Of a stretch of 32,678 nt of DNA, positions 820 through 21,827 are shown in pieces. The notes under the pieces were generated by a model, which saw nothing but the letters and a program-made list of their open reading frames with translations, ran no database searches and had not been told where the DNA came from. Where the stretch lies: positions 5,080 through 37,757 of IMG/VR virus record IMGVR_UViG_3300037847_005281; one strand, written 5' to 3'. This DNA is from a virus. A program made the translations under genes and the position numbers. Position 1 is the stretch's first letter. Each line of letters begins with the position of its first letter.

Positions 820-1344
820 ATGATGAAATATGAACTTATACCAGAAGATGACAAAAGACTAAGAACTATAGTCCACAATAAACATAAAATAACAAAAAAT
901 ACAGAAGACCTAGTTTATAATATGATTATGGTTATGAAAAAGCACGATGGTATTGGATTGGCGGCACCACAACTTGGTGTAATGGAAAGAATATTTGTTA
1001 TAGGACACGAAAGTACAGGTTATGTTGTATGTATAAATCCAAGTTGGGAAAGAACACAAACTGCAAAATTAGAATTGTTTCAAGAAGGTTGTTTAAGTTT
1101 TCCTCACTTAGAAATGCAAGTAGAAAGATTTAATGAAGTACATTGTACATTTACTAATCTAAAAGGCGAAACAGATACTAGATTATTCACAGGAGTTTGG
1201 GCACAAGCAGTACAACACGAAACAGACCATTTAGATGGTATGACTTTTGACAAAAGAGTTAAAACAAGTGTATGGCAAAAAGCGAATGCATTACGTAGAG
1301 AAAAAATAAAGAATCTACAGGCTCATACTCAGAATGACAATTAA
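820..1344 (+). CDS. def: peptide deformylase
   Basis: Peptide deformylase removes the formyl group from the N-terminal methionine of new proteins at the ribosome exit. All three family motifs are present in this 174-aa protein: GIGLAAPQ from residue 44, EGCLS from residue 89 (metal-ligand Cys91) and HETDH at 133-137 (metal ligands His133 and His137, catalytic Glu134). Length is close to the bacterial enzyme (about 170 aa), with no long C-terminal extension. Two adjacent ATGs (820, 823) could start it; the Shine-Dalgarno (AGAGG at 801) is distant. The 3' end overlaps the next gene by 11 bases. Phage deformylases are known from marine myoviruses. Here it belongs with IF-3, bS21, tmRNA and ClpX in a set acting on protein synthesis. 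Confidence 0.95.
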   Translation: MMKYELIPEDDKRLRTIVHNKHKITKNTEDLVYNMIMVMKKHDGIGLAAPQLGVMERIFVIGHESTGYVVCINPSWERTQTAKLELFQEGCLSFPHLEMQVERFNEVHCTFTNLKGETDTRLFTGVWAQAVQHETDHLDGMTFDKRVKTSVWQKANALRREKIKNLQAHTQNDN

Positions 1345-3639: not shown

Positions 3640-3987
3640 ATGAAAAAAATAAGCATAATCGGACTGCTAGTAGCAGTCTTCTTTTCTGGTGCCGTAGTGG
3701 CAGAAGAAACAAACGATATCTCTTGGGCATTAACTCTTGAGAGACAAACAGAAGCCAATGCAAACACTGGCGAACTAATGGGAACTAAATCATTGGCAGG
3801 AATTGATATTTCAGCAGGTGGGTTATGGGACATTGACAAATCAGGTCAAGATTTTATTGCTCTGAACAAAACAATGTTGAACTTTAGTCATTCATTATCT
3901 GACCAAGCAACTTTGTATATAAAGAATGACTTTGATACAGAATTTGTCAGAACTGAGTCAACTGTAGGATTAAAAATTACATTTTAA
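3640..3987 (+). CDS. exported protein, outer-membrane/beta-strand type
   Basis: The ATG at 3640 follows a strong ribosome site (AAGGAGG, 7 bases upstream) and gives a 115-aa product. Residues 1-22 form a signal peptide (MKK, hydrophobic core, AVVAEE cleavage region). The mature part alternates polar and nonpolar residues and ends in phenylalanine (VGLKITF), as outer-membrane beta proteins do, but it is far too short for a full porin. An early promoter directly upstream suggests action soon after infection; alteration of the envelope or superinfection exclusion is a possibility only. No specific family recognised. Confidence 0.7.
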   Translation: MKKISIIGLLVAVFFSGAVVAEETNDISWALTLERQTEANANTGELMGTKSLAGIDISAGGLWDIDKSGQDFIALNKTMLNFSHSLSDQATLYIKNDFDTEFVRTESTVGLKITF

Positions 3988-3991
3988 TTTG

Positions 3992-4020
3992 TTGACAAAC
4001 ACGTTGCTATAGTGTATAAA
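3992..4020 (+). promoter_or_regulatory. sigma70 promoter of the tmRNA
   Basis: TTGACA at 3992-3997 and TATAAA at 4015-4020 are 17 bp apart. The -10 hexamer is also the first six bases of a late box (TATAAATA, 4015-4022), so one site could serve both host and phage-modified polymerase with almost the same start point near 4028. Confidence 0.8.
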
Positions 4021-4022
4021 TA
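4015..4022 (+). promoter_or_regulatory. T4-like late promoter box overlapping a sigma70 -10
   Basis: A perfect TATAAATA is superimposed on the sigma70 -10 element of the tmRNA gene. The overlap would allow tmRNA synthesis throughout infection. Confidence 0.55.
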
Positions 4023-4027
4023 TAGTA

Positions 4028-4310
4028 TGTTAACGTTGAAGCAACGTAGACATATACTGGACCTGGGGGCAGTACCCAGCGGCTCCACCAAAATACATTG
4101 AGTCATAGAGGTTGTAGAAGGCTTGACTATTGTTATTTAAACTCAGTGCGTTTCGGCGGGGCCGAACTAGGATCGACAGGTATGAAAGCGAAGTGGAGTT
4201 ATCCGTGGTGACCTACGTTATTCGGTCAAAAACTATAAATGCAAACGATAATTTTGCAAATGAAGATTTAGCCTTAGCGGCTTAATCATTCGGGGTTGGC
4301 AACTGACCTG
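4028..4310 (+). ncRNA. ssrA: two-piece (permuted) tmRNA
   Basis: tmRNA frees stalled ribosomes and adds a degradation tag. The gene has the alphaproteobacterial permuted order. The acceptor piece comes first and ends in CGGCTCCACCA at 4080-4090. The intervening segment is about 4091-4157. The coding piece starts with GGGGCCG at 4158. GGGGCCG pairs with CGGCTCC as a 7-bp acceptor stem with a G-U at the third pair, the alanine identity element. A T-arm (CTGGG/CCCAG) precedes the acceptor strand. The tag frame begins at GCA 4241 and stops at TAA 4283-4285, encoding ANDNFANEDLALAA (AANDNFANEDLALAA with the charged Ala). This resembles alphaproteobacterial tags and ends in the LAA signal read by ClpXP. 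Outer ends are approximate. It has its own promoter, and a ClpX gene lies about 9 kb away. Confidence 0.93.
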
Positions 4311-4337
4311 GCAACAGAACTAGTTGCACTTTTATTT
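4311..4337 (+). terminator. hairpin with T-rich tail after tmRNA
   Basis: GCAAC (4311-4315) and GTTGC (4323-4327) form a 5-bp stem with a 7-base loop, followed by ACTTTTATTT. It is a modest intrinsic terminator or processing hairpin ahead of the ferredoxin gene, whose message may come from read-through. Confidence 0.45.
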
Positions 4338-4347
4338 CGGGTGATTG

Positions 4348-4686
4348 ATGACATATGTAGTAACACAGGATTGTATCAAATGTAAATACACAGATTGTGT
4401 TGAGGTATGTCCCGTAGATTGTTTCTACGAAGGTGATAATATGCTTGTTATCAATCCAGATGAATGCATCGATTGTGGAGTATGTGAACCAGAATGTCCA
4501 GCAGATGCAATCATTCCTGATACTTCCCCAAAATTCACACAAAGACTTTACGATATCAATAAGAAATGGTCAGAAGAATGGCCTGTAATTACTGAACAAA
4601 AAGACCCACTACCAAATGCAGATGCAATGAATCCATCAAAAGGATATGCGGAAAGTAAAGAAAATTTACTAGACGAATATGATTAA
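4348..4686 (+). CDS. fdxA: 7Fe (3Fe-4S/4Fe-4S) ferredoxin, FdxA type
   Basis: A soluble electron carrier of 112 aa beginning [17 protein letters not shown]. It shows the FdxA pattern: Cys9, Cys17 and neighbours with CPVDC form one cluster site, and [12 protein letters not shown] forms the second. The C-terminal extension (about residues 60-112) is typical of bacterial FdxA. The ATG at 4348 is preferred to the TTG one codon earlier. Its stop overlaps the next gene by 8 bases, and an unknown protein, a 2OG-Fe(II) oxygenase and a methyltransferase follow in one tight operon. Phage ferredoxins are known from marine viruses. The partner is unknown; the radical SAM protein at 23223 and nearby oxygenases are candidates by inference. 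Confidence 0.93.
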
Positions 4687-6759: not shown

Positions 6760-6979
6760 ATAGCATATAAAGAGTTATAAACTTTATATTGTAGTGCATC
6801 GAAGAGGCTGTTACCAGACGGTCGAAGATGACTAGTTAGGGGTGGTACCCAGGCTCAAAGTCTAGCGACCGAGGGTCACATCGCTCTACCGAGCGGAACT
6901 AGGTTCCCTGGATTTAGAATGGTATCTGAGTCGAGGGGTTGGGGGTGAAACCAAGTCCCTCCTACTTTGCTATATTTTT
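6760..6979 (+). ncRNA. structured noncoding RNA of about 215 nt, family unassigned
   Basis: No credible reading frame covers this segment. ATAGCA (6760-6765) pairs with TGCTAT (6968-6973), closing the whole RNA. Inside are ATATAAA/TTTATAT with AGTT/AACT (6766-6789), CGGTCG (about 6819) with CGACCG (about 6866) extended by CTAG/CTAG, a GGGT/ACCC hairpin at 6840-6850, AGCGA/TCGCT, GCTC-TACC-GAGC, and a 3' arm GAGGG/CCCTC enclosing TTGG/CCAA. An ATTTTT tract follows. Start, closing helix and U-tract agree with the promoter, so the limits are fairly firm. It lacks RNase P core motifs and a tmRNA tag; 6S-like or marine environmental RNA families remain possible. There is no protein-coding gene on + downstream, so it is not a leader. 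Confidence 0.75.
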
Positions 6980-7083: not shown

Positions 7084-7171
7084 TGGCTTTAGGGGGAGGA
7101 TTCGAACCTCCACGTAACTATGTTACAACGGATAAACAGTCCGCTATGTCTACCAATTCCATCACCCTAAA
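7084..7171 (-). tRNA. class II tRNA with GUU (Asn) anticodon
   Basis: The minus strand folds into a full cloverleaf of 88 nt. The acceptor is TTTAGGG/CCCTAAA with discriminator G73 and an encoded CCA. The D-arm has GG in GAATTGGTAGA. The anticodon stem is GCGGA/TCCGT with loop CTGTTTA, hence GUU. A long variable arm GTAAC-ATA-GTTAC and T-arm GGAGG-TTCGAAT-CCTCC complete it. The body and long variable arm are those of tRNA-Leu-type (class II) molecules, while the anticodon and G73 are asparagine identity elements; bacterial tRNA-Leu normally has A73. U37 is also unusual, since position 37 is nearly always a purine. It begins 13 nt after the stop of the AsnRS-like gene, so both probably share a transcript. 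Confidence 0.9.
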
Positions 7172-7183
7172 CTAGCAAGTATA

Positions 7184-8008
7184 TTACGAATTTTTATCTA
7201 AAGCAGAAATCATTCTTGTCATACCGATTCCACCACCAACTCTTGGGAAGAAATCGAATTCTAAGAACTTTTCTAATTCTGCCTCTACTCTTTCTTTAGA
7301 GAATAGTTTATAAAGCAATTCTGAATATTCACCATTTGTGATTGTGTGAAAAGTATCACGCATCATTTCTTTATCACAAGAACGTTCCGCGGAACCTATT
7401 GTTTCCATACCTCCTAAGATAACATCTATCTTCTTACTTGTAGCACCACCTTCGTGTCTACTCATATTCCAGAACGGAGATGTCATTTCAGGAAAGTCTG
7501 TAATCATTGTAGCACCGAATTCTTCAAACATTTTAGTTTCGTGTTCGGCTTCCATTTCTGTCATTGCATCTAGACCAAAATGTTTTTGCCAGTCTGCATA
7601 TGTTCTTTCTTCTGGTTTAGGGAATTCTAAGTATTCACATAATTCATATTCCATCTTTTTCAAATCATCATATCCACCTGGAAATTCAAATTCAAACATA
7701 GGGAAGATTATATCGTGTCTACCTGGAATTGCATTTGGTTCTTGTCTATAGGACGTGGAGACACAAAAAAAGCCCTTTGCATCGGGCTTTGAGAGTAATT
7801 CGTGTTCTAACCACATTTGGCCTGTTTGGGGAAGGGGCCAGACTTGGCCTGCATAATTGTATGTTGCTACATTGAACGGATCTTCACAAGCCGCCAATAT
7901 ACTTAATCTGTTTTGAGTATGTACTTCTTCAAAACCTTTATCCAAAAAAAATGACCTTAAAAGGCCAACTGTTTTTGTAAATTTTGTAGGATTTATTAAT
8001 TGCGTCAT
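7184..8008 (-). CDS. AsnRS/AspRS-like class II synthetase catalytic core
   Basis: This 274-aa protein is a class II aminoacyl-tRNA synthetase fold of the Asp/Asn/Lys group without any anticodon-binding OB domain. Motif 2 is at about residues 84-109 (SYRQE, then GRHDIIFPMFEFEF; R88, E90, RH 97-98). The middle has IDVILGGMETIGSAERS, corresponding to the GGSQRE region of AsnRS. Motif 3 is GGGIGMTRM at 258-266, with the ATP-binding Arg265. Known stand-alone cores of this type include archaeal asparagine synthetase (AS-AR) and bacterial AsnA, which make Asn from Asp, ammonia and ATP, and other synthetase paralogues. The co-transcribed GUU tRNA makes a tRNA-linked role plausible. A minus-strand late box is 78 bases upstream of the start. 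Whether it charges tRNA, amidates Asp or modifies something else cannot be told from sequence. Confidence 0.82.
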   Translation of the reverse strand: MTQLINPTKFTKTVGLLRSFFLDKGFEEVHTQNRLSILAACEDPFNVATYNYAGQVWPLPQTGQMWLEHELLSKPDAKGFFCVSTSYRQEPNAIPGRHDIIFPMFEFEFPGGYDDLKKMEYELCEYLEFPKPEERTYADWQKHFGLDAMTEMEAEHETKMFEEFGATMITDFPEMTSPFWNMSRHEGGATSKKIDVILGGMETIGSAERSCDKEMMRDTFHTITNGEYSELLYKLFSKERVEAELEKFLEFDFFPRVGGGIGMTRMISALDKNS

Positions 8009-11573: not shown

Positions 11574-13148
11574 ATGGTATTTCCAATTATCACTTTTGTT
11601 ACGGCTATTGCCATTGCCTTTATTGCGGCTTGGTTCTCAATAATAGGTCTTATGGCGATTTTTGCCGCCTCGGCATTGCCCGTAGCATTAATGGCTGGTT
11701 CACTTGAAGTCGGTAAATTAGTTGCCGCCTCTTGGGTTTACCGTAATTGGAAGAGGGCTCCATTTTTATTAAAAACATATCTAACGATAGCAGTTGTTGT
11801 TTTAATGTTCATCACAAGTATGGGCATTTTTGGTTTCTTATCTAAAGCACACTTAGACCAAGCCGCACAGGGAGAGGCTAGTAGTGCCAAGATAGAACGT
11901 ATAATAAGTGATATCGAAAGAAACGAGAATTTAATAAAAAGAACTGAATTAAAAATTGACAAACTCGATTCTGAGTCTAACAATGAATCTAGTGATATCA
12001 ATTCTCAAATCGATGCTGAACAACAACGTATGGATAATGCATATGCTCGTATTCAGCCAGCGATTGATGAACAAATGGAAATCATTAGAAATGAGCAAAA
12101 AGGTACAGAAGACCAGGTTCAATCATATACACTTCAAATAAATCGTATCAATGAAACATTAAACAAACTTGAAACTTATACTGATGGTATAGATAACAAG
12201 GATAATGTTAAAAAACTACAGGCCCTTGTTGGTACGAAGGTAGATGGTAGATATGGTTATCGTACTGCAAATGCAGTTGAAGATTTCAGAAAAGACCAAC
12301 TAAAAGAAAAAGAAAAGTTAATTAATATTATTGAAGATATTCGTAATTCTGTAGATACAGATGTTATTGACCAAGCACGTGAAGAAATTAAAAGATTACG
12401 TACTATGGCTGACAGAGAAATACAGAATGCACAAGATAATATCAATAGATTAAGAAACTCTTTGAATGCAGTTGGAGAAATTGATAATACAGTTGAAATA
12501 GAAGAACTAACTATCAAAGTACGAAATGCTGAGGAAGAAATCGAAGTCTGGCTTGACGAAAAGTTTGAATTAGAAAGTAAAGTCAGAGAGATTGAAGCCG
12601 AAGTAGGACCAATCAAATATATTGCTGAACTGATTTATGGTGAAACCAATCCCTCTATTATAGATTCGGCAGTAAGATGGTTGATTATTGTCTTTATTTT
12701 TGTGTTTGATCCACTAGCAGTTATCTTATTACTTGCGGCCAATTACAGTTTTGTTCATAGAAACGACCATTCTGGACGACAAGCAGAGATATTCGAATCT
12801 CTTTTTTCGAAAAATGAAAAGAAACCGCTTGACAAAGAAGAAGAAATAAGCGATAATAAAGAGATTGACACGGATTCAGAGGAAGTTGAAGAATCTGATG
12901 AAGTAGTCAAAGATGAAATAGAGAAAAAGGAAGATAACGAAACTGTGGAAGTTGAAGAAACTAAATCAGAAGATCCAAGTGGTGTTCATTTAGATCCTGC
13001 AGAAGTTGACTTAAAAAATCTTATAGAGAATGCTGATGAAGAAACTCTTAAGAAAATAAAAGACGATGCAGAAAGAGAAATAAATACTAAAAAGGAAAAG
13101 AAAGGCCAAGGCTGGCTAGATGATTTAGGCAAAGGCTTTTACAAGTAA
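11574..13148 (+). CDS. membrane protein with coiled coil and peptidoglycan-binding-like segment
   Basis: A 524-aa protein with two or three hydrophobic N-terminal segments (about 1-88), a long charged, probably coiled-coil region (about 95-355), a C-terminal transmembrane segment (about 364-390) and a very acidic tail. Residues about 212-240 (VKKLQALVGTKVDGRYGYRT, continuing with AVEDFRK) match the PG_binding_1 pattern, in which a short repeat binds cell-wall peptidoglycan. This suggests an envelope protein spanning from cytoplasm to periplasm. It is under a late promoter with translation-controlling hairpin, so late production seems required. Lysis control or wall remodelling before release is possible; I do not recognise an exact family. 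Confidence 0.7.
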   Translation: MVFPIITFVTAIAIAFIAAWFSIIGLMAIFAASALPVALMAGSLEVGKLVAASWVYRNWKRAPFLLKTYLTIAVVVLMFITSMGIFGFLSKAHLDQAAQGEASSAKIERIISDIERNENLIKRTELKIDKLDSESNNESSDINSQIDAEQQRMDNAYARIQPAIDEQMEIIRNEQKGTEDQVQSYTLQINRINETLNKLETYTDGIDNKDNVKKLQALVGTKVDGRYGYRTANAVEDFRKDQLKEKEKLINIIEDIRNSVDTDVIDQAREEIKRLRTMADREIQNAQDNINRLRNSLNAVGEIDNTVEIEELTIKVRNAEEEIEVWLDEKFELESKVREIEAEVGPIKYIAELIYGETNPSIIDSAVRWLIIVFIFVFDPLAVILLLAANYSFVHRNDHSGRQAEIFESLFSKNEKKPLDKEEEISDNKEIDTDSEEVEESDEVVKDEIEKKEDNETVEVEETKSEDPSGVHLDPAEVDLKNLIENADEETLKKIKDDAEREINTKKEKKGQGWLDDLGKGFYK

Positions 13149-13168: not shown

Positions 13169-14440
13169 TTGTCAGACAAAAAAGATTATCATTGTTCGTT
13201 TTGTGGAAAACACAAGAATGAAATAAAAACTTTGATTGCAGGTCCGGCTAGTTACATTTGTAACGAGTGTATAGACCTTTGTCATTCAATCGTACACGAA
13301 AGAAAAAAATCTGACAAGATAGGTAAAAATTTAGACGGCGGCATTCCTACTCCCGATGAAATCAAAGAATTTTTAGATTTACACGTGATAGGACAAGCGG
13401 AAGCAAAAGAAGTCCTGAGTGTCGCCGTTTATAATCACTATAAAAGAGTAAATTTACCAGAAGACGATAACGATATAGAATTAGAAAAATCTAATGTTAT
13501 GATGCTTGGTCCATCAGGAACAGGTAAAACATTACTAGGTAAAACAATCGCAAAATTTTTAGAAGTACCATTTGCACAAGTTGATGCAACAACATTAACT
13601 GAAAGTGGTTATGTTGGTGAAGATGTTGAAAATGTAATTCAAAGATTATTAATGAATGCAGATTTTGATATTAAGAAAGCAGAACAAGGTATTATCTATA
13701 TTGACGAAATTGATAAAAAAGCAAAGAAAGGCGAAAACGTTTCAATAACAAAAGACGTATCAGGTGAAGGTGTTCAACAAGCATTACTAAAAATTGTTGA
13801 AGGTACTGTAGTACGTGTTCCACCAGGAGGTGGTCGTAAACACCCAGGTGCTGATATGCTTGAAGTTGATACAAGTAAAATTTTGTTTATTGTAGGTGGA
13901 GCCTTTGTTGGATTAGATAACATCATTAAGAAAAGATTAAACTCAAGTGGATCAATTGGATTTGGTGCAAATGTAGTAGCACCTGAAGAAGATAAAATAC
14001 AAGTTTCAAAAGAAGTATTAGCAGAAGATGTTATTAAGTATGGTATCATACCAGAGTTTATGGGAAGATTTCCTATCTTAGTAGGAATAGATGATTTAAC
14101 AAAAGACGAATTAACAAGAATTTTAACAGAACCTAAAAATAATCTTGTTGCACAATTTAAAAAGATTTTCAAATTAGATGGCGTAGAATTGAATTTCACA
14201 AAAGACGCAATCAAAGAAATAGCAAATCAGGCAAGTGAAAACAAAACAGGAGCAAGAGGACTACGTAGTGTATTAGAAAAATCATTATTAAAAATACAAT
14301 TTACATTACCTAAGTTACGAAAGAATGCAGGTCTTCAATCTGTAGAAATAACGGCTGATTTTATTAAAAGCAACAAAGAACCAATAATGGTATTTAAGGA
14401 ACCAAAATCAACAGGGACATCAAAAAATATAAATGAATAA
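13169..14440 (+). CDS. clpX: ClpX ATPase subunit of the Clp protease
   Basis: ClpX unfolds tagged proteins and feeds them to ClpP. The 423-aa protein is full length (E. coli 424). A zinc-binding domain (Cys 9, 12, 31, 34) is followed by Walker A GPSGTGKT (114-121), pore loop GYVG (147-150), Walker B IIYIDE (175-180), RKH loop (223-225) and the ClpP-contact loop IGFGA (263-267). All functional motifs are intact, so it could dock on host ClpP. The start is TTG at 13169, with AGAGAAAG upstream; no in-frame ATG is near. It overlaps infC, which overlaps rpsU. With a phage tmRNA (tag ending LALAA) and ClpS in the same window, a dedicated substrate-selection system is likely. Confidence 0.96.
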   Translation: MSDKKDYHCSFCGKHKNEIKTLIAGPASYICNECIDLCHSIVHERKKSDKIGKNLDGGIPTPDEIKEFLDLHVIGQAEAKEVLSVAVYNHYKRVNLPEDDNDIELEKSNVMMLGPSGTGKTLLGKTIAKFLEVPFAQVDATTLTESGYVGEDVENVIQRLLMNADFDIKKAEQGIIYIDEIDKKAKKGENVSITKDVSGEGVQQALLKIVEGTVVRVPPGGGRKHPGADMLEVDTSKILFIVGGAFVGLDNIIKKRLNSSGSIGFGANVVAPEEDKIQVSKEVLAEDVIKYGIIPEFMGRFPILVGIDDLTKDELTRILTEPKNNLVAQFKKIFKLDGVELNFTKDAIKEIANQASENKTGARGLRSVLEKSLLKIQFTLPKLRKNAGLQSVEITADFIKSNKEPIMVFKEPKSTGTSKNINE

Positions 14441-14975
14441 ACGACATAGAGAAGAACGTAATAAACCTTTTGTAATTTCAAATCACAGGATACGTTCTAA
14501 CGAATTGAGAGTGATTTCAGACGAAGGCGAACAACTTGGGATTTTATCTAAAAACGAAGCCCAAAATATTGCTGATGAAAAGCAATTAGATTTAATTTTA
14601 ATCGTACCAAATGCAGAACCGCCTGTAGCAAAAATAATTAGTTTAAATAAATATACTTACGAAATCAAAAAGCGAGAAAAGGATAGAGCAAAACAGGCAA
14701 GACAGAATTCAGTAGATATTAAGGAAGTTAAGTTTAGACCTAACATAGGTGAGAATGACCTTAAGATGAAACTGAAACAATGTCAAAAGTTTATTGACAA
14801 AGGCAATAAAGTAAAAATAACTATACAAATGAGAGGCAGAGAAAATTCTAGATCCACAGATGTACTAGAAAATTTCAATTCCCAATTCTCTGAGAATTTG
14901 AGTGGTTTCAAATTCGATGCACCTCTGAAACAAACAGGGAATAGAATAATGGGTATGTTGGTAAAAGATGAATAA
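14433..14975 (+). CDS. infC: translation initiation factor IF-3
   Basis: IF-3 binds the 30S subunit, keeps it free of 50S and checks start codon pairing. The 180-aa product has both domains. The N-domain includes NHRIRSNELRVISDEGEQLG and DLILIVPNAEPPVAKI. A Lys/Arg-rich linker follows, then the C-domain with DIKEVKFRPNIGENDL and KVKITIQMRGRE, the RNA-binding core. Length equals bacterial IF-3. It overlaps clpX upstream and rpsU downstream by 8 bases each (ATGAATAA junctions), so the three are translationally coupled. Unlike most host infC genes, it is not next to rpmI/rplT. Confidence 0.96.
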   Translation: MNKRHREERNKPFVISNHRIRSNELRVISDEGEQLGILSKNEAQNIADEKQLDLILIVPNAEPPVAKIISLNKYTYEIKKREKDRAKQARQNSVDIKEVKFRPNIGENDLKMKLKQCQKFIDKGNKVKITIQMRGRENSRSTDVLENFNSQFSENLSGFKFDAPLKQTGNRIMGMLVKDE

Positions 14976-15231
14976 CGAAAGAAACAATAAAAGACGTTGG
15001 AATAGCAATAATGATTTTGGTATTCGAAAGTCTGGAATACAAGTTGAAGTAAAGAACGGTCAATTTGAACGTGCAATGCGTAAGTTCAAAAAGAAAGTAA
15101 CTGAGGCTGGTATTATACAAGAAGTCAGGGAACGTAAATTTTTTGTTAAACCAAGTGAGATTAAACGAAAGGCACGTGATGCTGGACGTAAACGTTGGTT
15201 AAGAAAACAAAAAATGGATGAATGGAAATAA
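14968..15231 (+). CDS. rpsU: ribosomal protein bS21
   Basis: bS21 sits on the 30S platform near the anti-Shine-Dalgarno and affects mRNA selection. The 87-aa protein has an extra N-terminal extension of about 25 Asn/Arg-rich residues before the conserved core VEVKNGQFERAMRKFKKKV, then GIIQEVRERKFFVKPSEIKR and the basic tail. Phage bS21 is known from pelagiphages and can enter host ribosomes. Together with IF-3 in the same operon it could bias initiation towards phage messages (inference). Confidence 0.95.
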   Translation: MNNERNNKRRWNSNNDFGIRKSGIQVEVKNGQFERAMRKFKKKVTEAGIIQEVRERKFFVKPSEIKRKARDAGRKRWLRKQKMDEWK

Positions 15232-15261: not shown

Positions 15262-15579
15262 TTAGAATAAGTGGTCAGTAATTTCTTCTTCAAAAATTGG
15301 TTGAGCACCATTGAAAGATGCAAGTTGAGATTCAATATCTGCAACAACTGTATCTCTAGTTGATTCATCAGGATATACGAATGTCGTTACACCTTCAAAT
15401 TTGTCCTCTGTTAATGCTTCCTGAAAGTTTGATGCATCAGAAATATCAACACCAGCATTTGTTAAAGAATTTTTTAGAATTGCTACATAATCTGTGTAGT
15501 TATTCTCTGACACAATTTGGTCTACCGTATCATATTGCTTTACAATATGCGGATAGAAAACTTTAGTTATTTTAATCAT
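15262..15579 (-). CDS. hypothetical protein, 105 aa
   Basis: The ATG at 15579 (MIKITKVFYPHIVKQYDTVD) is chosen over an upstream in-frame start because TAGGAGG lies 8 bases before it. An acidic soluble protein with no recognised family. It lies alone on the minus strand between rpsU and a + gene. A minus-strand late box is 39 bases upstream. Confidence 0.72.
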   Translation of the reverse strand: MIKITKVFYPHIVKQYDTVDQIVSENNYTDYVAILKNSLTNAGVDISDASNFQEALTEDKFEGVTTFVYPDESTRDTVVADIESQLASFNGAQPIFEEEITDHLF

Positions 15580-15617
15580 TAGGTGGCCTCCTAGAATAAA
15601 TATTAATTGTGTACAAG

Positions 15618-15625
15618 TATTTATC
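15618..15625 (-). promoter_or_regulatory. T4-like late promoter box, minus strand
   Basis: GATAAATA on the minus strand, 39 bases before the start at 15579, in the gap between two divergent genes. Confidence 0.6.
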
Positions 15626-15639
15626 ACAAAGAAAAGAAA

Positions 15640-15879
15640 ATGACAATAGATTTAGATAAATTAACATTAAGAGAACTACAAAAAGAGAGTACTAGAGCCT
15701 TATTAACTATGGACGGTACTAGTCACGGTATTTCTCAATTCAATAAAAAAGCACATCATAATAGTCAACTTTGGTATAAGGCTGTTTTGGAACATTATAT
15801 CAAAGAATACGGCGGATTACCAAGAGATATAGGACCTGCAAAAGATATTGTTTTAATGAGTGAAATGATTGGCTGTTAA
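15640..15879 (+). CDS. hypothetical protein, 79 aa
   Basis: The ATG at 15640 (MTIDLDKLTLRELQKES) is preferred to an upstream in-frame start at 15607, which would overlap the minus-strand promoter. A soluble helical protein with several histidines and a terminal cysteine. A weak late-like box (AATAAATA, 15595-15602) could drive it. No family recognised. Confidence 0.6.
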   Translation: MTIDLDKLTLRELQKESTRALLTMDGTSHGISQFNKKAHHNSQLWYKAVLEHYIKEYGGLPRDIGPAKDIVLMSEMIGC

Positions 15880-15889: not shown

Positions 15890-15895
15890 TATGTA

Positions 15896-15967
15896 CGTTC
15901 AGGCAATATAGCCCGGAAGTAGCATAATGTGAAGGAACGCACTTAAACCTTTAACCGGGAGAGTGCA
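15896..15967 (+). promoter_or_regulatory. glutamine-II (downstream-peptide) riboswitch
   Basis: The element has the conserved core of glutamine riboswitches: CGTTCA at 15896, GGAAGTAG at 15915-15922, and GAAGGAACGC at 15931-15940. CGTTC pairs with GAACG (P1), GGC with GCC (15902-15913), and CCCGG (15912-15916) with CCGGG (15955-15959) as a pseudoknot crossing P1. CCGGGAGAG includes the ribosome site of the 32-aa ORF at 15968, so glutamine binding would hide it. GCACT (15939-15943) with AGTGC (15962-15966) gives a possible alternative fold. The pattern and the small ORF behind it match the class found in marine cyanobacteria, cyanophages and ocean metagenomes. Confidence 0.85.
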
Positions 15968-16738: not shown

Positions 16739-17053
16739 ATGCAAACACAAAATGAAAGTGTAACATCAGTTGATACGGCATCGACTATAAAAATAGCAAC
16801 ACCAAAAAGATATTATGTTGTTATGCATAACGATGACCAAACACCTATTGACTTTGTTGTTAAAGTACTTATGGAACTGTATCATCACGACCAACAAACA
16901 TCAGCCGACTTAGCAAATAAAATTCATATAGACCAAAAAGCAATAGTCGGAATGTATAATTTAGAAATAGCGGAACAAAAGGTGGAAGAGACTCACGGGA
17001 CAAGCAGGGCACATGGTTACCCATTAACGGTAACATTGGAACAGGCAGATTAA
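16739..17053 (+). CDS. clpS: ClpS adaptor protein
   Basis: ClpS binds N-degron substrates and delivers them to ClpAP (or ClpCP). The 104-aa protein has a flexible N-terminal extension (about 20 residues) and the core RYYVVMHNDDQTPIDFVVKV, containing the NDD-x-T-P-[IM] substrate pocket, then KAIVGMYNLEIAEQKVEE and PLTVTLEQ. No ClpA is in the window, so it would act through a host ClpA. Binding host ClpA could also redirect that protease. A ribosome-site-like GGGAAG and late box precede it. Its coupling with phage ClpX and tmRNA suggests control over both degradation routes. Confidence 0.92.
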   Translation: MQTQNESVTSVDTASTIKIATPKRYYVVMHNDDQTPIDFVVKVLMELYHHDQQTSADLANKIHIDQKAIVGMYNLEIAEQKVEETHGTSRAHGYPLTVTLEQAD

Positions 17054-17876: not shown

Positions 17877-18629
17877 ATGACAAATCGATCCCAACAAGGG
17901 TATCGAAAATACCAGAACTGGAATGGTTCACGTTGGTTATATACACGTGAACAATCACAATGGCATTTTGATACTAAATCAGATACACAAGACTTTCAGC
18001 CTATTTGCCAATTTATTGGTGATTGGGATTTTTCTGTACAGAAAGCAATGAAACGTGTTGTTGATTGTACTTGGGCAAATCGTAATTATTTCTCAAAAAA
18101 TCCAGATGAAAATAAGAAACCGATGTATTCTGCAAGTGCGGAAGAAATGGACTTGTTTAGAGCGGGTGCAAATCCAAAACAAGAAATATTTCAACGTGCG
18201 GTAGCAGACGATATTCCCATATTTCAAAAAATTGCTAGTCACTTAAAACTAGAAGATCCATCAGTTAAATTTCATAATCAAAGACCTGGACAAACTCTTA
18301 ATTTACATATTGATAATTTTGCTGGTCGTAAAGAACGTGGCAATAGTTTCAAAGAAATAAAAGTAGACAGAAATCCTGACGCAATGAGAAGATTTGTTGT
18401 GATGCTAGATGATTGGAAACACGGACAAGTGTTTATGTTAGGAAATCAAGTTTGGCATCGTTGGAACAAAGGCGATTGTATAACTTGGAACTGGCGTGAT
18501 ATTCCACACTGTACAAGTAATATGGGTTGGGATAATAGACCTATGTTACAGATAACAGGTTGGACTACAAAAGAAACTATTGAAGTTGTAAACAACGGCA
18601 GTTTTGAAAAGAAAGTAGAGATATGTTAG
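17877..18629 (+). CDS. 2OG-Fe(II) oxygenase-like protein A
   Basis: The 250-aa protein carries the 2-oxoglutarate oxygenase signature: metal ligands H144-x-D146 (LHIDNF), distal His211 (DIPHCTSN) and R221 ten residues later (DNRPMLQ) for binding 2-oxoglutarate. It is clearly paralogous to protein B at 20065-20781; both share DNFAGRKERGNSF, MLDDWKHGQVF and NMGW-x-x-RPMLQ. Its stop overlaps the tctA start by 7 bases, so oxygenase and transporter are translationally coupled. The pair flanking a permease is striking. Substrate unknown; 2-oxoglutarate use is inferred from the motif. Confidence 0.8.
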   Translation: MTNRSQQGYRKYQNWNGSRWLYTREQSQWHFDTKSDTQDFQPICQFIGDWDFSVQKAMKRVVDCTWANRNYFSKNPDENKKPMYSASAEEMDLFRAGANPKQEIFQRAVADDIPIFQKIASHLKLEDPSVKFHNQRPGQTLNLHIDNFAGRKERGNSFKEIKVDRNPDAMRRFVVMLDDWKHGQVFMLGNQVWHRWNKGDCITWNWRDIPHCTSNMGWDNRPMLQITGWTTKETIEVVNNGSFEKKVEIC

Positions 18630-20065
18630 AACAAATTTTAGTACTATTAGCAGGTACATTTTATGGTCTCGTTGTAGGTATTATTCCAAGTGCAGGTGCA
18701 ACAACAGGATTAGTTGCTTTGTTTTCTTTTATTGGATATTTTTCAGGAGACCCATATTTAGGAGTAATATTCTGTATGGCAGTTGTTGCCGCCAGTACAA
18801 CTGGTGATACATTTACTGGTGTACTATTAGGAATACCAGGAGCAAATTCAGCCGCGGCTACTATGGTAGACGGATACCCATTAGCAAAACAAGGTAAGGC
18901 AACTTATGCCATTACGGCGGCAGTTACAACATCAACAGTAAATGGATTAATTTGGGGTACATTGACTTTTGGATTATTGCCCTGGTACATACAATTAATG
19001 ATGATATTTGGTATACCTGAATTGTGGGCATTCACAATGTTGGCACTTGCTTGTGTTGGATTTATATCAAGCAAATGGTGGGTAAGAAGTTTAATCGCTA
19101 TTGTAATAGGTTTCTGTTTAGGATATATTGGTACAGATCCATATACAAACGCAGATAGATGGACATTAGGTTGGGCATACTTAGGTGATGGATTACAACT
19201 TATGCCAGTAGTTGCAGGTTTATTTGCTTTTCCAGAAATTATTGCAGGCTTAAGAAGAAGTGATAAAATTTCTGCGGTACCAATGGACAACTTATTTCAA
19301 CAAACAGTTGATGGTGCAAAAGCAACTTGGAAACATAAATGGGACGCATTACGAGGTGGGGCTATAGGAGCATTTATTGGTTTACTTCCTGGCTTAGGTG
19401 GAGCAATGAGTGATTGGTTAGCATATGGTTCTACAGTAGCCGCCCATCCAAATGATAAGTTTGGTAATGGTAACATCAAAGGTGTTATTGGACCAGAAGG
19501 ATCTAATAATGCACAAAAGGCTACATCTATGATACCAACTGTTTTATTCGGTATACCAGGTGCAAGTTTTGCCGCGGTGTTGATGGGCTTGTTTATGTAT
19601 CTTGATTTTGAATTAGGTACACCAGACTTAGCATATGATACAAAATTCTTTGATAGTTTGTTTTATGGATTTATGTGGGCAACTGTACTTTGTGGAATTT
19701 TATGCTTGATTTTTACTAGATATATTGCTATGATAAGTTATGTACCTTACAAATATTATTTTCCGATTCTTGTAGCATTTATTATTTGGGCTTGTGTTCA
19801 ATATACAGGTGGTTGGGAAGATTACGCAGTATTGGCAGGTATGACAGTATTGGGACTTATTTGTAGAAAATGGAAATTTAGTAGACCAGCAATGTTAATG
19901 GGCTTCATTCTTTCAGATAGAATTGAAGGCTTATCAATACAAATGTTAAACTTATATGGTTTTGACAAATTAATGGATAGACCGATATTTTTAGGTTTAA
20001 TGGGATTAATAGTAATCGTTTTTATATGGGGAATATTTAGACGAGGAAAATTGGAGTATGCATAA
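18623..20065 (+). CDS. tctA: TctA-like permease of a tripartite tricarboxylate transporter
   Basis: TctA is the large membrane subunit of TTT transporters, which import citrate and other carboxylates with a periplasmic binding protein. The 480-aa protein is full length with about 11-12 hydrophobic segments. It has both family repeats: GLVVGIIPSAGATTGLVALF near the N-terminus and FIGLLPGLGGAMSDWLAYG near residue 250, plus GVIGPEGSNNAQKATSMIPT and LFGIPGASFAAVLMG. It is coupled to oxygenase A upstream and B downstream (TAATG). A TctC-like binding protein follows B. No standard TctB of about 150 aa is seen; the 76-aa membrane protein at 21835 is the nearest candidate. Confidence 0.92.
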   Translation: MLEQILVLLAGTFYGLVVGIIPSAGATTGLVALFSFIGYFSGDPYLGVIFCMAVVAASTTGDTFTGVLLGIPGANSAAATMVDGYPLAKQGKATYAITAAVTTSTVNGLIWGTLTFGLLPWYIQLMMIFGIPELWAFTMLALACVGFISSKWWVRSLIAIVIGFCLGYIGTDPYTNADRWTLGWAYLGDGLQLMPVVAGLFAFPEIIAGLRRSDKISAVPMDNLFQQTVDGAKATWKHKWDALRGGAIGAFIGLLPGLGGAMSDWLAYGSTVAAHPNDKFGNGNIKGVIGPEGSNNAQKATSMIPTVLFGIPGASFAAVLMGLFMYLDFELGTPDLAYDTKFFDSLFYGFMWATVLCGILCLIFTRYIAMISYVPYKYYFPILVAFIIWACVQYTGGWEDYAVLAGMTVLGLICRKWKFSRPAMLMGFILSDRIEGLSIQMLNLYGFDKLMDRPIFLGLMGLIVIVFIWGIFRRGKLEYA

Positions 20066-20781
20066 TGAATGATGAAAAATGGGGTGATAGTAGATGGGAA
20101 TTTACTAAATCACAATCTCAATGGCACTTTGATGAATTTGAACCAGGCGAAAGAGACTTTCAGTATGTTGGTACTTTTCAAGGAGACTGGTCAAATGAAA
20201 TAGATGAGTGTTTAGGTAGAGTAAAACCAAATACTTGGGCAAATAGAAACATAGAACAAAAGTCAGAAATCTATACTGCCTCACAAGAACAAAACGATTT
20301 AATAAAAGCAGGAGCAGATCCTGACTCACAGATTTTTAGTAGGGCAAATGCGAAAGATATTCCTATCTTTCAACGTATTGCTAACTATTTTGGTATGAAT
20401 GAAACGGCAATAAAGTTTCATAACCAAACAACAGGTCAAATGTTGCATTGGCACATTGATAATTTTGCAGGACGCAAAGAACGTGGTAATTCATTTACCG
20501 AGATTGAGGCTGATAAAAATCCTCACTTAATGCGAAGATTTGCAATTATGTTAGACGATTGGAAACACGGTCAAGTTTTTGCATTAGGTAATACATACTT
20601 TCATCAATGGAAAAAAGGTGAATGTATAACTTGGGAATGGAGAGATATTCCACACGCAACTTGTAATATGGGTTGGAACGATAGACCTATGCTACAAGTA
20701 ACAGGATGGACTACCGAAACAACACATAAAGTTGTTAAGGAAGGACGTAAAAACAAACTCATAAACGTAAACGGAGAGTAA
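20065..20781 (+). CDS. 2OG-Fe(II) oxygenase-like protein B
   Basis: A 238-aa paralogue of protein A (17877), with all proposed ligands kept: HID in HWHIDNF, a distal His in DIPHATCN and Arg in NDRPMLQ. Long identical stretches such as DNFAGRKERGNSF and MLDDWKHGQVF indicate duplication within this lineage followed by divergence. It starts at the TAATG junction with tctA and is followed 2 bases later by the tctC-like gene, so it sits inside the transporter operon. Its product may act on the imported carboxylate or depend on imported 2-oxoglutarate (hypothesis). Confidence 0.8.
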   Translation: MNDEKWGDSRWEFTKSQSQWHFDEFEPGERDFQYVGTFQGDWSNEIDECLGRVKPNTWANRNIEQKSEIYTASQEQNDLIKAGADPDSQIFSRANAKDIPIFQRIANYFGMNETAIKFHNQTTGQMLHWHIDNFAGRKERGNSFTEIEADKNPHLMRRFAIMLDDWKHGQVFALGNTYFHQWKKGECITWEWRDIPHATCNMGWNDRPMLQVTGWTTETTHKVVKEGRKNKLINVNGE

Positions 20782-20783
20782 CT

Positions 20784-21827
20784 ATGAGAAAAACATTAAT
20801 AGCATTAGCCGTATTTTTTGGCTTAACAACATCAGCATTCGCTGAATACATTATGGTTATCCCTCAGAAGCCCGGTGGCGGAACTTCTGTATGGGGTGAA
20901 ATCGTAGCAGGACAATTAGAAAAACACTTAGGTGAAAAGATTGTTCTAAAACATTATCCAGGTGCAAGAGATATTCCTGGTTTTAACAAATGGCATAACA
21001 CTATGCGTGATGATGACAAAGTAATTATGGTATCACACGGTGGTAACGGTGTTGCATTCTTACAAGAGAATGTAGACTACAATTATGCTGAATATGAATC
21101 AATCGGATTGATGAACTTGAATATTATCGCTGGTAAATTAAAAGGCGCTGATATGACAAACCCATCATTTGCGGCAGGTTCAGGTATGGTTCCAGAGGCA
21201 TTTGCAATGACAATGCTTATCTGTGGTCCAGATAAATCAATCGCAGAATATACTGCTTGTTTCAAAGAACACGTAACTTGGGTTCCAGGAATGAGTGGCG
21301 GTGAACGTAGACTTGCTTTCAAAAGAGGCGAACTTACAGGTACACGTGAAAATCCAGCGGCTTATAAAAAGCACGTAGGACCAAATGAAAATGCAGAACT
21401 TTGGTTTCATCACGGTATTTTACAACCAGATGGTTCACACGCAGATGATCCTAACTATCCAGGATTTCAATTCGAAATTTTATTCGAAGCGAAATGGGGT
21501 GTAGCACCAAGTGGTGAAATGTATGATGCATACAAACTTGTGAAATCATTCCGTGATGGTTTACAAAAAGCATTATGGGTTAACGCAGGTAATCCAAATG
21601 CACCAGAACTAATTGCGGCAATGGAAAAAATGGCGGCAGATCCAGAATCAACAAAAGTAATTGCTAAAAAAGTTGGTAATTATGAATGGAAAATCGGTTC
21701 TGACGGAAATGCTCAACGTGATACTCTTATGACATTTATTACAGAAGATGCACTAAGAGGTCTTGTTGAGTTTAATACTAACGCATTAGGACTTAAGTCT
21801 GTATTCAAAGAAAATCTTGTAAAGTAA
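20784..21827 (+). CDS. tctC: TctC-like periplasmic binding protein
   Basis: The 347-aa product has a signal peptide (MRKTLIALAVFFGLTTSAFA) and, directly after it, YIMVIPQKPGGGTSVWGEIVAGQLEKHLG, corresponding to the PGG-x-[TS]-D ligand-binding start of TctC/Bug solute receptors, then a PGA motif (HYPGARDIPGF) like the family's N-R-PGAGG. The remainder is less conserved than in bacterial TctC. The family delivers carboxylates to TctA in the inner membrane. It is the last of the four cassette genes. A GGAG ribosome site precedes it. Confidence 0.8.
   Translation: MRKTLIALAVFFGLTTSAFAEYIMVIPQKPGGGTSVWGEIVAGQLEKHLGEKIVLKHYPGARDIPGFNKWHNTMRDDDKVIMVSHGGNGVAFLQENVDYNYAEYESIGLMNLNIIAGKLKGADMTNPSFAAGSGMVPEAFAMTMLICGPDKSIAEYTACFKEHVTWVPGMSGGERRLAFKRGELTGTRENPAAYKKHVGPNENAELWFHHGILQPDGSHADDPNYPGFQFEILFEAKWGVAPSGEMYDAYKLVKSFRDGLQKALWVNAGNPNAPELIAAMEKMAADPESTKVIAKKVGNYEWKIGSDGNAQRDTLMTFITEDALRGLVEFNTNALGLKSVFKENLVK

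Follow-up and report, generated by a model that had tools for sequence, protein, structure and literature searches.

A probable conserved clpX-infC-rpsU cassette, arranged as one overlapping translational unit, in T4-type jumbo marine phages

The viral DNA analysed here (32,678 nucleotides, hereafter the window, which comes from a 37.8-kb IMG/VR virus record and is a probable fragment of a T4-type jumbo phage) carries the genes clpX, infC (encoding IF-3) and rpsU (encoding bS21) in direct succession, each overlapping the next. Comparison with related loci suggests that T4-type jumbo marine phages probably conserve these three genes as a cassette, organized as one overlapping translational unit. 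The explanation that we favour, with rather better than even confidence, is a joint and dose-limited supply of IF-3 and bS21 to the 30S subunit of the host, accompanied by a phage-encoded set of quality-control functions. Replacement of IF-3 and bS21 by a phage in order to hijack initiation is itself an already published idea (PMC7162821). The new point is the position of the weak start codon, which lies on clpX (TTG) in the clade of the window and on infC (TTG or GTG) in several further lineages, in no case on both. No description of the overlapping unit or of this reciprocal weak start was found in the open-access literature searched. The features of the window that bear on this are the following:

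820..1344, plus strand: def, peptide deformylase (Pfam Pep_deformylase), also found in most of the relatives L007-L014
3973..4376, plus strand: permuted alphaproteobacterial-type tmRNA with tag ANDNFANEDLALAA (ARAGORN 3997-4376; Rfam alpha_tmRNA 3973-4330)
11574..13148, plus strand: p524, a membrane/coiled-coil protein upstream of the block
13169..14440, plus strand: clpX, 423 aa, TTG start, weak Shine-Dalgarno (Pfam zf-C4_ClpX and AAA_2)
14433..14440, plus strand: clpX/infC overlap ATGAATAA, with the start of infC within the end of clpX
14433..14975, plus strand: infC, 180 aa, complete two-domain IF-3, ATG start (Pfam IF3_N and IF3_C)
14968..14975, plus strand: infC/rpsU overlap ATGAATAA
14968..15231, plus strand: rpsU (bS21), 87 aa, ATG start, basic N-terminal extension (Pfam Ribosomal_S21)
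15640..15879, plus strand: small conserved protein, 3' of rpsU in most of L002-L025
16183..16626, plus strand: hsp20, small heat-shock protein (Pfam HSP20)
16739..17053, plus strand: clpS adaptor (Pfam ClpS, 7e-25)

The products of clpX, infC, rpsU and def are bona fide members of their families. An initial annotation of the window had described a complete IF-3 gene overlapping both of its neighbours by 8 bases, as well as a deformylase gene at position 820, and all of this was confirmed: the two overlaps have the stated length and are identical in sequence (ATGAATAA), IF-3 is complete since Pfam matches both its N-terminal (IF3_N, 9e-25) and its C-terminal domain (IF3_C, 2e-19), and def is recognized with an E-value of 3e-35. 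For bS21 the Pfam match (3.4e-15) is complemented by a family profile that matches solved bS21 chains. In ClpX the zinc-binding residues (C9/C12/C31/C34), the pore loops GYVG (G147-G150) and RKH (R223-H225) and the ClpP-docking IGF motif (I263-F265) are all invariant in alignment A3. Ratios of dN/dS between 0.02 and 0.17 for clpX, infC and rpsU indicate strong purifying selection on all three genes.

An AlphaFold model of the phage IF-3 (pLDDT 83) has two domains joined by a linker helix (71-92), and the structures that it matches best are those of IF-3, several in the 30S-bound state (E 1.5e-17 to 1e-12). The IF-3 contact residues R25, Y75, K110 and R133 (E. coli numbering) are kept in all phage sequences compared, and for R99 and R131 the block phages around the window have either R or K. 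Three arginines thought to be important in E. coli, R129, R147 and R168, are replaced across the clade of the window (R129Q, R147Q and R168N in the window itself), and given these substitutions the activity of the phage factor could differ from that of E. coli IF-3. Nearly all block-phage IF-3 sequences in the comparison have N at position 168, in most cases followed directly by R, a phage-specific change of the IF-3 C-terminal domain.

The arrangement was followed through 43 non-redundant IMG/VR loci sampled via IF-3, in which counts of neighbours are lower bounds since contigs end. The gene rpsU lies after infC in 41/43 loci, with an overlap of 8 bases in 25 and of 4 bases in 10; p524 is found upstream of the block in 41/43, hsp20 within 3 kb of infC in 38/43, clpS within 4 kb in 37/43, and clpX immediately 5' of infC in 24/43. 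This retention of the infC-rpsU pair, together with the low dN/dS of all three genes, argues against a pairing by chance. In one clade (L027-L064) a conserved protein of ∼130 aa takes the place of clpX about 450 bases upstream of infC; the one representative tested (L057) had no PHROG match. Since infC occurs without clpX in some relatives and clpX-rpsU without infC in other phages, ClpX, IF-3 and bS21 are not obligate partners. Enterobacterial jumbo phages carry infC without the block.

The relatives identified with the IF-3 alignment are located on virus contigs, those of block phages reaching up to 342 kb. The T4-type major capsid protein Gp23 was identified in five related records, including both of 342 kb, and was not found in the 37.8-kb record of the window, which is a fragment. 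A phage-encoded IF-3, called unusual in the initial annotation, is in fact no rarity: it has its own PHROG family (phrog_9787), matches 98 phage records, among them dozens of enterobacterial jumbo phages, although some of the 98 are probably bacterial contamination, and it has been described in print (PMC7162821). In a phylogenetic tree the IF-3 of block phages splits from all sampled bacterial IF-3 (SH-aLRT 98), while that of rhizobial jumbo phages groups with the bacterial sequences; the deep relations are tentative, as the tree comes from a quick search with SH-aLRT support only on a short protein with many weak forks. With the same reservation, the tree speaks against the idea that IF-3 was captured recently from an alphaproteobacterial host.

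The initial annotation had also pointed to the TTG start of clpX. We consider this start real because the window offers no in-frame ATG and the TTG is conserved in relatives; the start of clpX is forced to TTG (16) or GTG (1) in 17/19 loci. A general bias of the phage genes towards TTG was ruled out, as an ATG start is available for 323/363 gene copies, and of about 40 gene families no clear one other than clpX is consistently forced to a non-ATG start (the count takes in a few reverse-strand families that are doubtful, their starts being mixed or absent). Nor is TTG a general habit of clpX, given that an ATG lies nearby in 72/80 bacterial clpX genes, a forced GTG or TTG being confined to the other 8. 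An overlap with p524 was likewise rejected as its cause, the two genes being 20 bases apart in the window and not overlapping in L002-L006. In prokaryotes generally, changes of the start codon from UUG to AUG are commoner than the reverse (PMC5622118), and the relatives that keep the TTG of clpX share only 50-76% identity in IF-3, so that its retention needs explaining. The Shine-Dalgarno energy at clpX is -2.9, and the sites at infC and rpsU of the window are middling to poor, which would fit coupled translation.

In the window and its clade infC starts with ATG and the weak start sits on the upstream clpX instead. The reverse is seen where clpX has an ATG or is absent: there infC is forced to TTG or GTG (L050-L053, L055, L064, L061, L065, L066/L068), and likewise in the cultured phages Phosso and Atu_ph07. 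No locus has a weak start on both genes. The pattern is not universal, and independent switches are few: both genes have ATG in L023-L026, L056 and L077-L080, infC has ATG in the clpX-less L027-L049, and neither gene has a weak start in enterobacterial jumbo phages. Among bacteria, 39 of the 56 infC genes sampled lack a nearby ATG, which is the known rare-start hallmark of this gene. The weak start may fix the dose of the coupled unit or act on it through feedback.

Three further elements of the window, the tmRNA, clpS and hsp20, were absent from the initial annotation and belong to the same picture as clpX-infC-rpsU. The tmRNA scores 141.5 bits against Rfam alpha_tmRNA (gathering score 50), and its encoded tag ANDNFANEDLALAA ends in LAA. 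Permuted tmRNAs of the alphaproteobacterial type are present in 11/12 records of the phage group, that of the window included, with tags ending in LAA, IAA or MAA, close to the signal read by ClpX. A search of 11 related records found no SmpB, so the phage tmRNA would rely on that of the host. A literature search on phage-encoded tmRNA returned no paper. A ClpP-family protein is encoded in 9/11 related records, with a strong ClpP match in six, while the weaker matches may represent another protease; the largest related phages carry ClpP.

Around these genes, the small protein at 15640..15879 had no PHROG match. A minus-strand gene between rpsU and this small gene (15262-15627) is confined to the window and its closest relatives (L016-L022), and a glutamine riboswitch aptamer (15894-15943, Rfam RF01739) lies between the small gene and hsp20. 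Elsewhere, a tRNA-Asn gene adjoins a 274-aa class II tRNA-synthetase-like protein (7084-8008, minus strand; Pfam tRNA-synt_2, D/K/N type), which may be a relative of asparaginyl-tRNA or asparagine synthetase without the anticodon-binding domain. A manA RNA motif is found at 6766-6971 (Rfam RF01745, 64.5 bits), and a TctA tricarboxylate transporter gene with a downstream TctC-like gene (18623-21827), the latter named from reading and without a Pfam match, is shared with several relatives.

Huge phages have been reported to encode IF1, IF3, bS21, tmRNA and deformylase, for which a redirection of host translation initiation was proposed (Al-Shayeb 2020, PMC7162821). Both the gene set and the role proposed for it agree with those of the window, but the passages found in that paper mention neither an overlapping clpX-infC-rpsU unit nor start codons, and the term "Clp" is absent from its main text. 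A clpX gene next to that of IF-3 has been noted in the rhizobial jumbo phage AP-J-162 (PMC11242549), and AP-J-162, Phosso and Atu_ph07 resemble the window in that infC directly follows clpX. In Phosso and Atu_ph07, however, clpX and infC do not overlap, infC has no S21 annotated beside it, the weak start is a GTG on infC with ATG on clpX, and IF-3 groups with bacterial sequences, unlike that of block phages. The Pseudomonas PA5oct-type phage Callisto and the Salicola phage SCTP-2, both cultured, share the order clpX-rpsU-(hsp20)-clpS with the window, and SCTP-2 also has a p524 homologue upstream that adjoins clpX, but in both infC is missing between clpX and rpsU, and clpX starts with ATG. In E. 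coli, infC is autoregulated via its AUU start. The phage unit resembles this system in having a weak start codon within the translational unit of infC; it differs in that the weak codon is a TTG on the overlapping upstream clpX, infC itself having ATG. The Pelagibacter phage HTVC008M and lake phages also encode bS21, often with Hsp20 or Clp genes nearby (PMC6375957, PMC9723584), but IF-3 is unmentioned in the lake-phage paper (PMC9723584), and the organism groups listed with the IF-3 matches include no Pelagibacter phage. The bS21 of HTVC008M enters E. coli ribosomes, which then retain ∼5% activity in vitro, and the authors suggested that additional factors may be needed or that host and phage parts are mismatched (PMC6375957).

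An intact, overlapping and conserved gene pair is naturally read as supplying IF-3 and bS21 jointly to the 30S subunit. Ribosomes completing clpX would restart on infC and then on rpsU, and IF-3 and bS21 would thereby be produced together and in proportion. Both would join the host 30S subunit, with bS21 on the platform close to the anti-Shine-Dalgarno tail and IF-3 as its neighbour, and may there maintain initiation on phage mRNAs, or bias it towards them, while selecting AUG as usual. ClpX, together with ClpS, Hsp20, the tmRNA with its tag ending in LAA and, in larger relatives, ClpP would clear stalled or damaged proteins. The weak start of clpX would hold the whole unit at a low dose and may let the phage IF-3 limit its own synthesis.

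This last step, in which discrimination against the conserved UUG of the coupled clpX would let the phage IF-3 control its own dose along with those of bS21 and ClpX, seems to us rather unlikely. For E. coli IF-3, UUG is almost an ordinary start, and discrimination and feedback are directed mainly at AUU, AUC, AUA and CUG, which makes self-control a minority reading, and it would require a phage IF-3 that acts against UUG more than its E. coli counterpart does. The same specificity speaks for a simpler possibility, to which we would give some weight without thinking it probable, namely that the TTG start and the overlaps fix a low, constant dose without feedback and that the genes cluster for no other reason than their related roles in late housekeeping. 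It differs from the preferred explanation only by dropping the feedback and the joint action on the 30S subunit. A weak start with a weak Shine-Dalgarno would indeed reduce output, and published phage bS21 genes are commonly near Hsp20 and Clp genes (PMC9723584). A fixed dose does not, however, predict that the weak start falls on clpX or on infC according to lineage and never on both, although the independent switches behind this pattern are few.

The remaining alternatives concern what the two factors do to the ribosome. The initial annotation had proposed that simultaneous replacement of both 30S factors could reprogram the choice of starts towards phage mRNAs, TTG-started ones included. 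Joint replacement agrees with the intact pair, its single overlapping unit and its conserved pairing; the shift towards TTG is not supported, since phage genes are ATG-started, with clpX as the sole clear family that is consistently forced to another codon. A relaxed choice of start codons in favour of phage messages with TTG is accordingly improbable: the conserved TTG of clpX fits it, and loss of R129, R147 and R168 could relax proofreading, but many TTG genes would then be expected, and bacterial IF-3 as known acts against non-AUG starts, not for them. It is similarly improbable that IF-3 and bS21 poison the ribosome and shut down host translation instead of aiding phage mRNAs. The low activity of ribosomes with pelagiphage bS21 would suit such a role, but it was measured with a foreign host (PMC6375957), lake phages express their bS21 late, along with the structural genes (PMC9723584), and the phage needs the same ribosomes. 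That the genes are recent, non-functional host genes picked up by chance we regard as very improbable; several transfers of bS21 between hosts and phages are documented (PMC6375957), yet purifying selection, a block conserved over deep divergence and the split of the phage IF-3 from all sampled bacterial IF-3 contradict it.

The joint, dose-limited supply of IF-3 and bS21 thus remains the explanation that we prefer. The findings turn a loose list of translation genes of large phages into one conserved physical unit with fixed order and overlaps, and this makes the idea that phages rebuild host ribosomes directly testable. IF-3 becomes a candidate for the missing factor of the nearly inactive ribosomes with phage bS21 (PMC6375957). 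The reciprocal placing of the weak start, if it is regulatory, would represent a phage-specific form of initiation-factor self-control, and the self-control reading, if true, would make the TTG of clpX the bacterial self-control loop of infC moved to another site.
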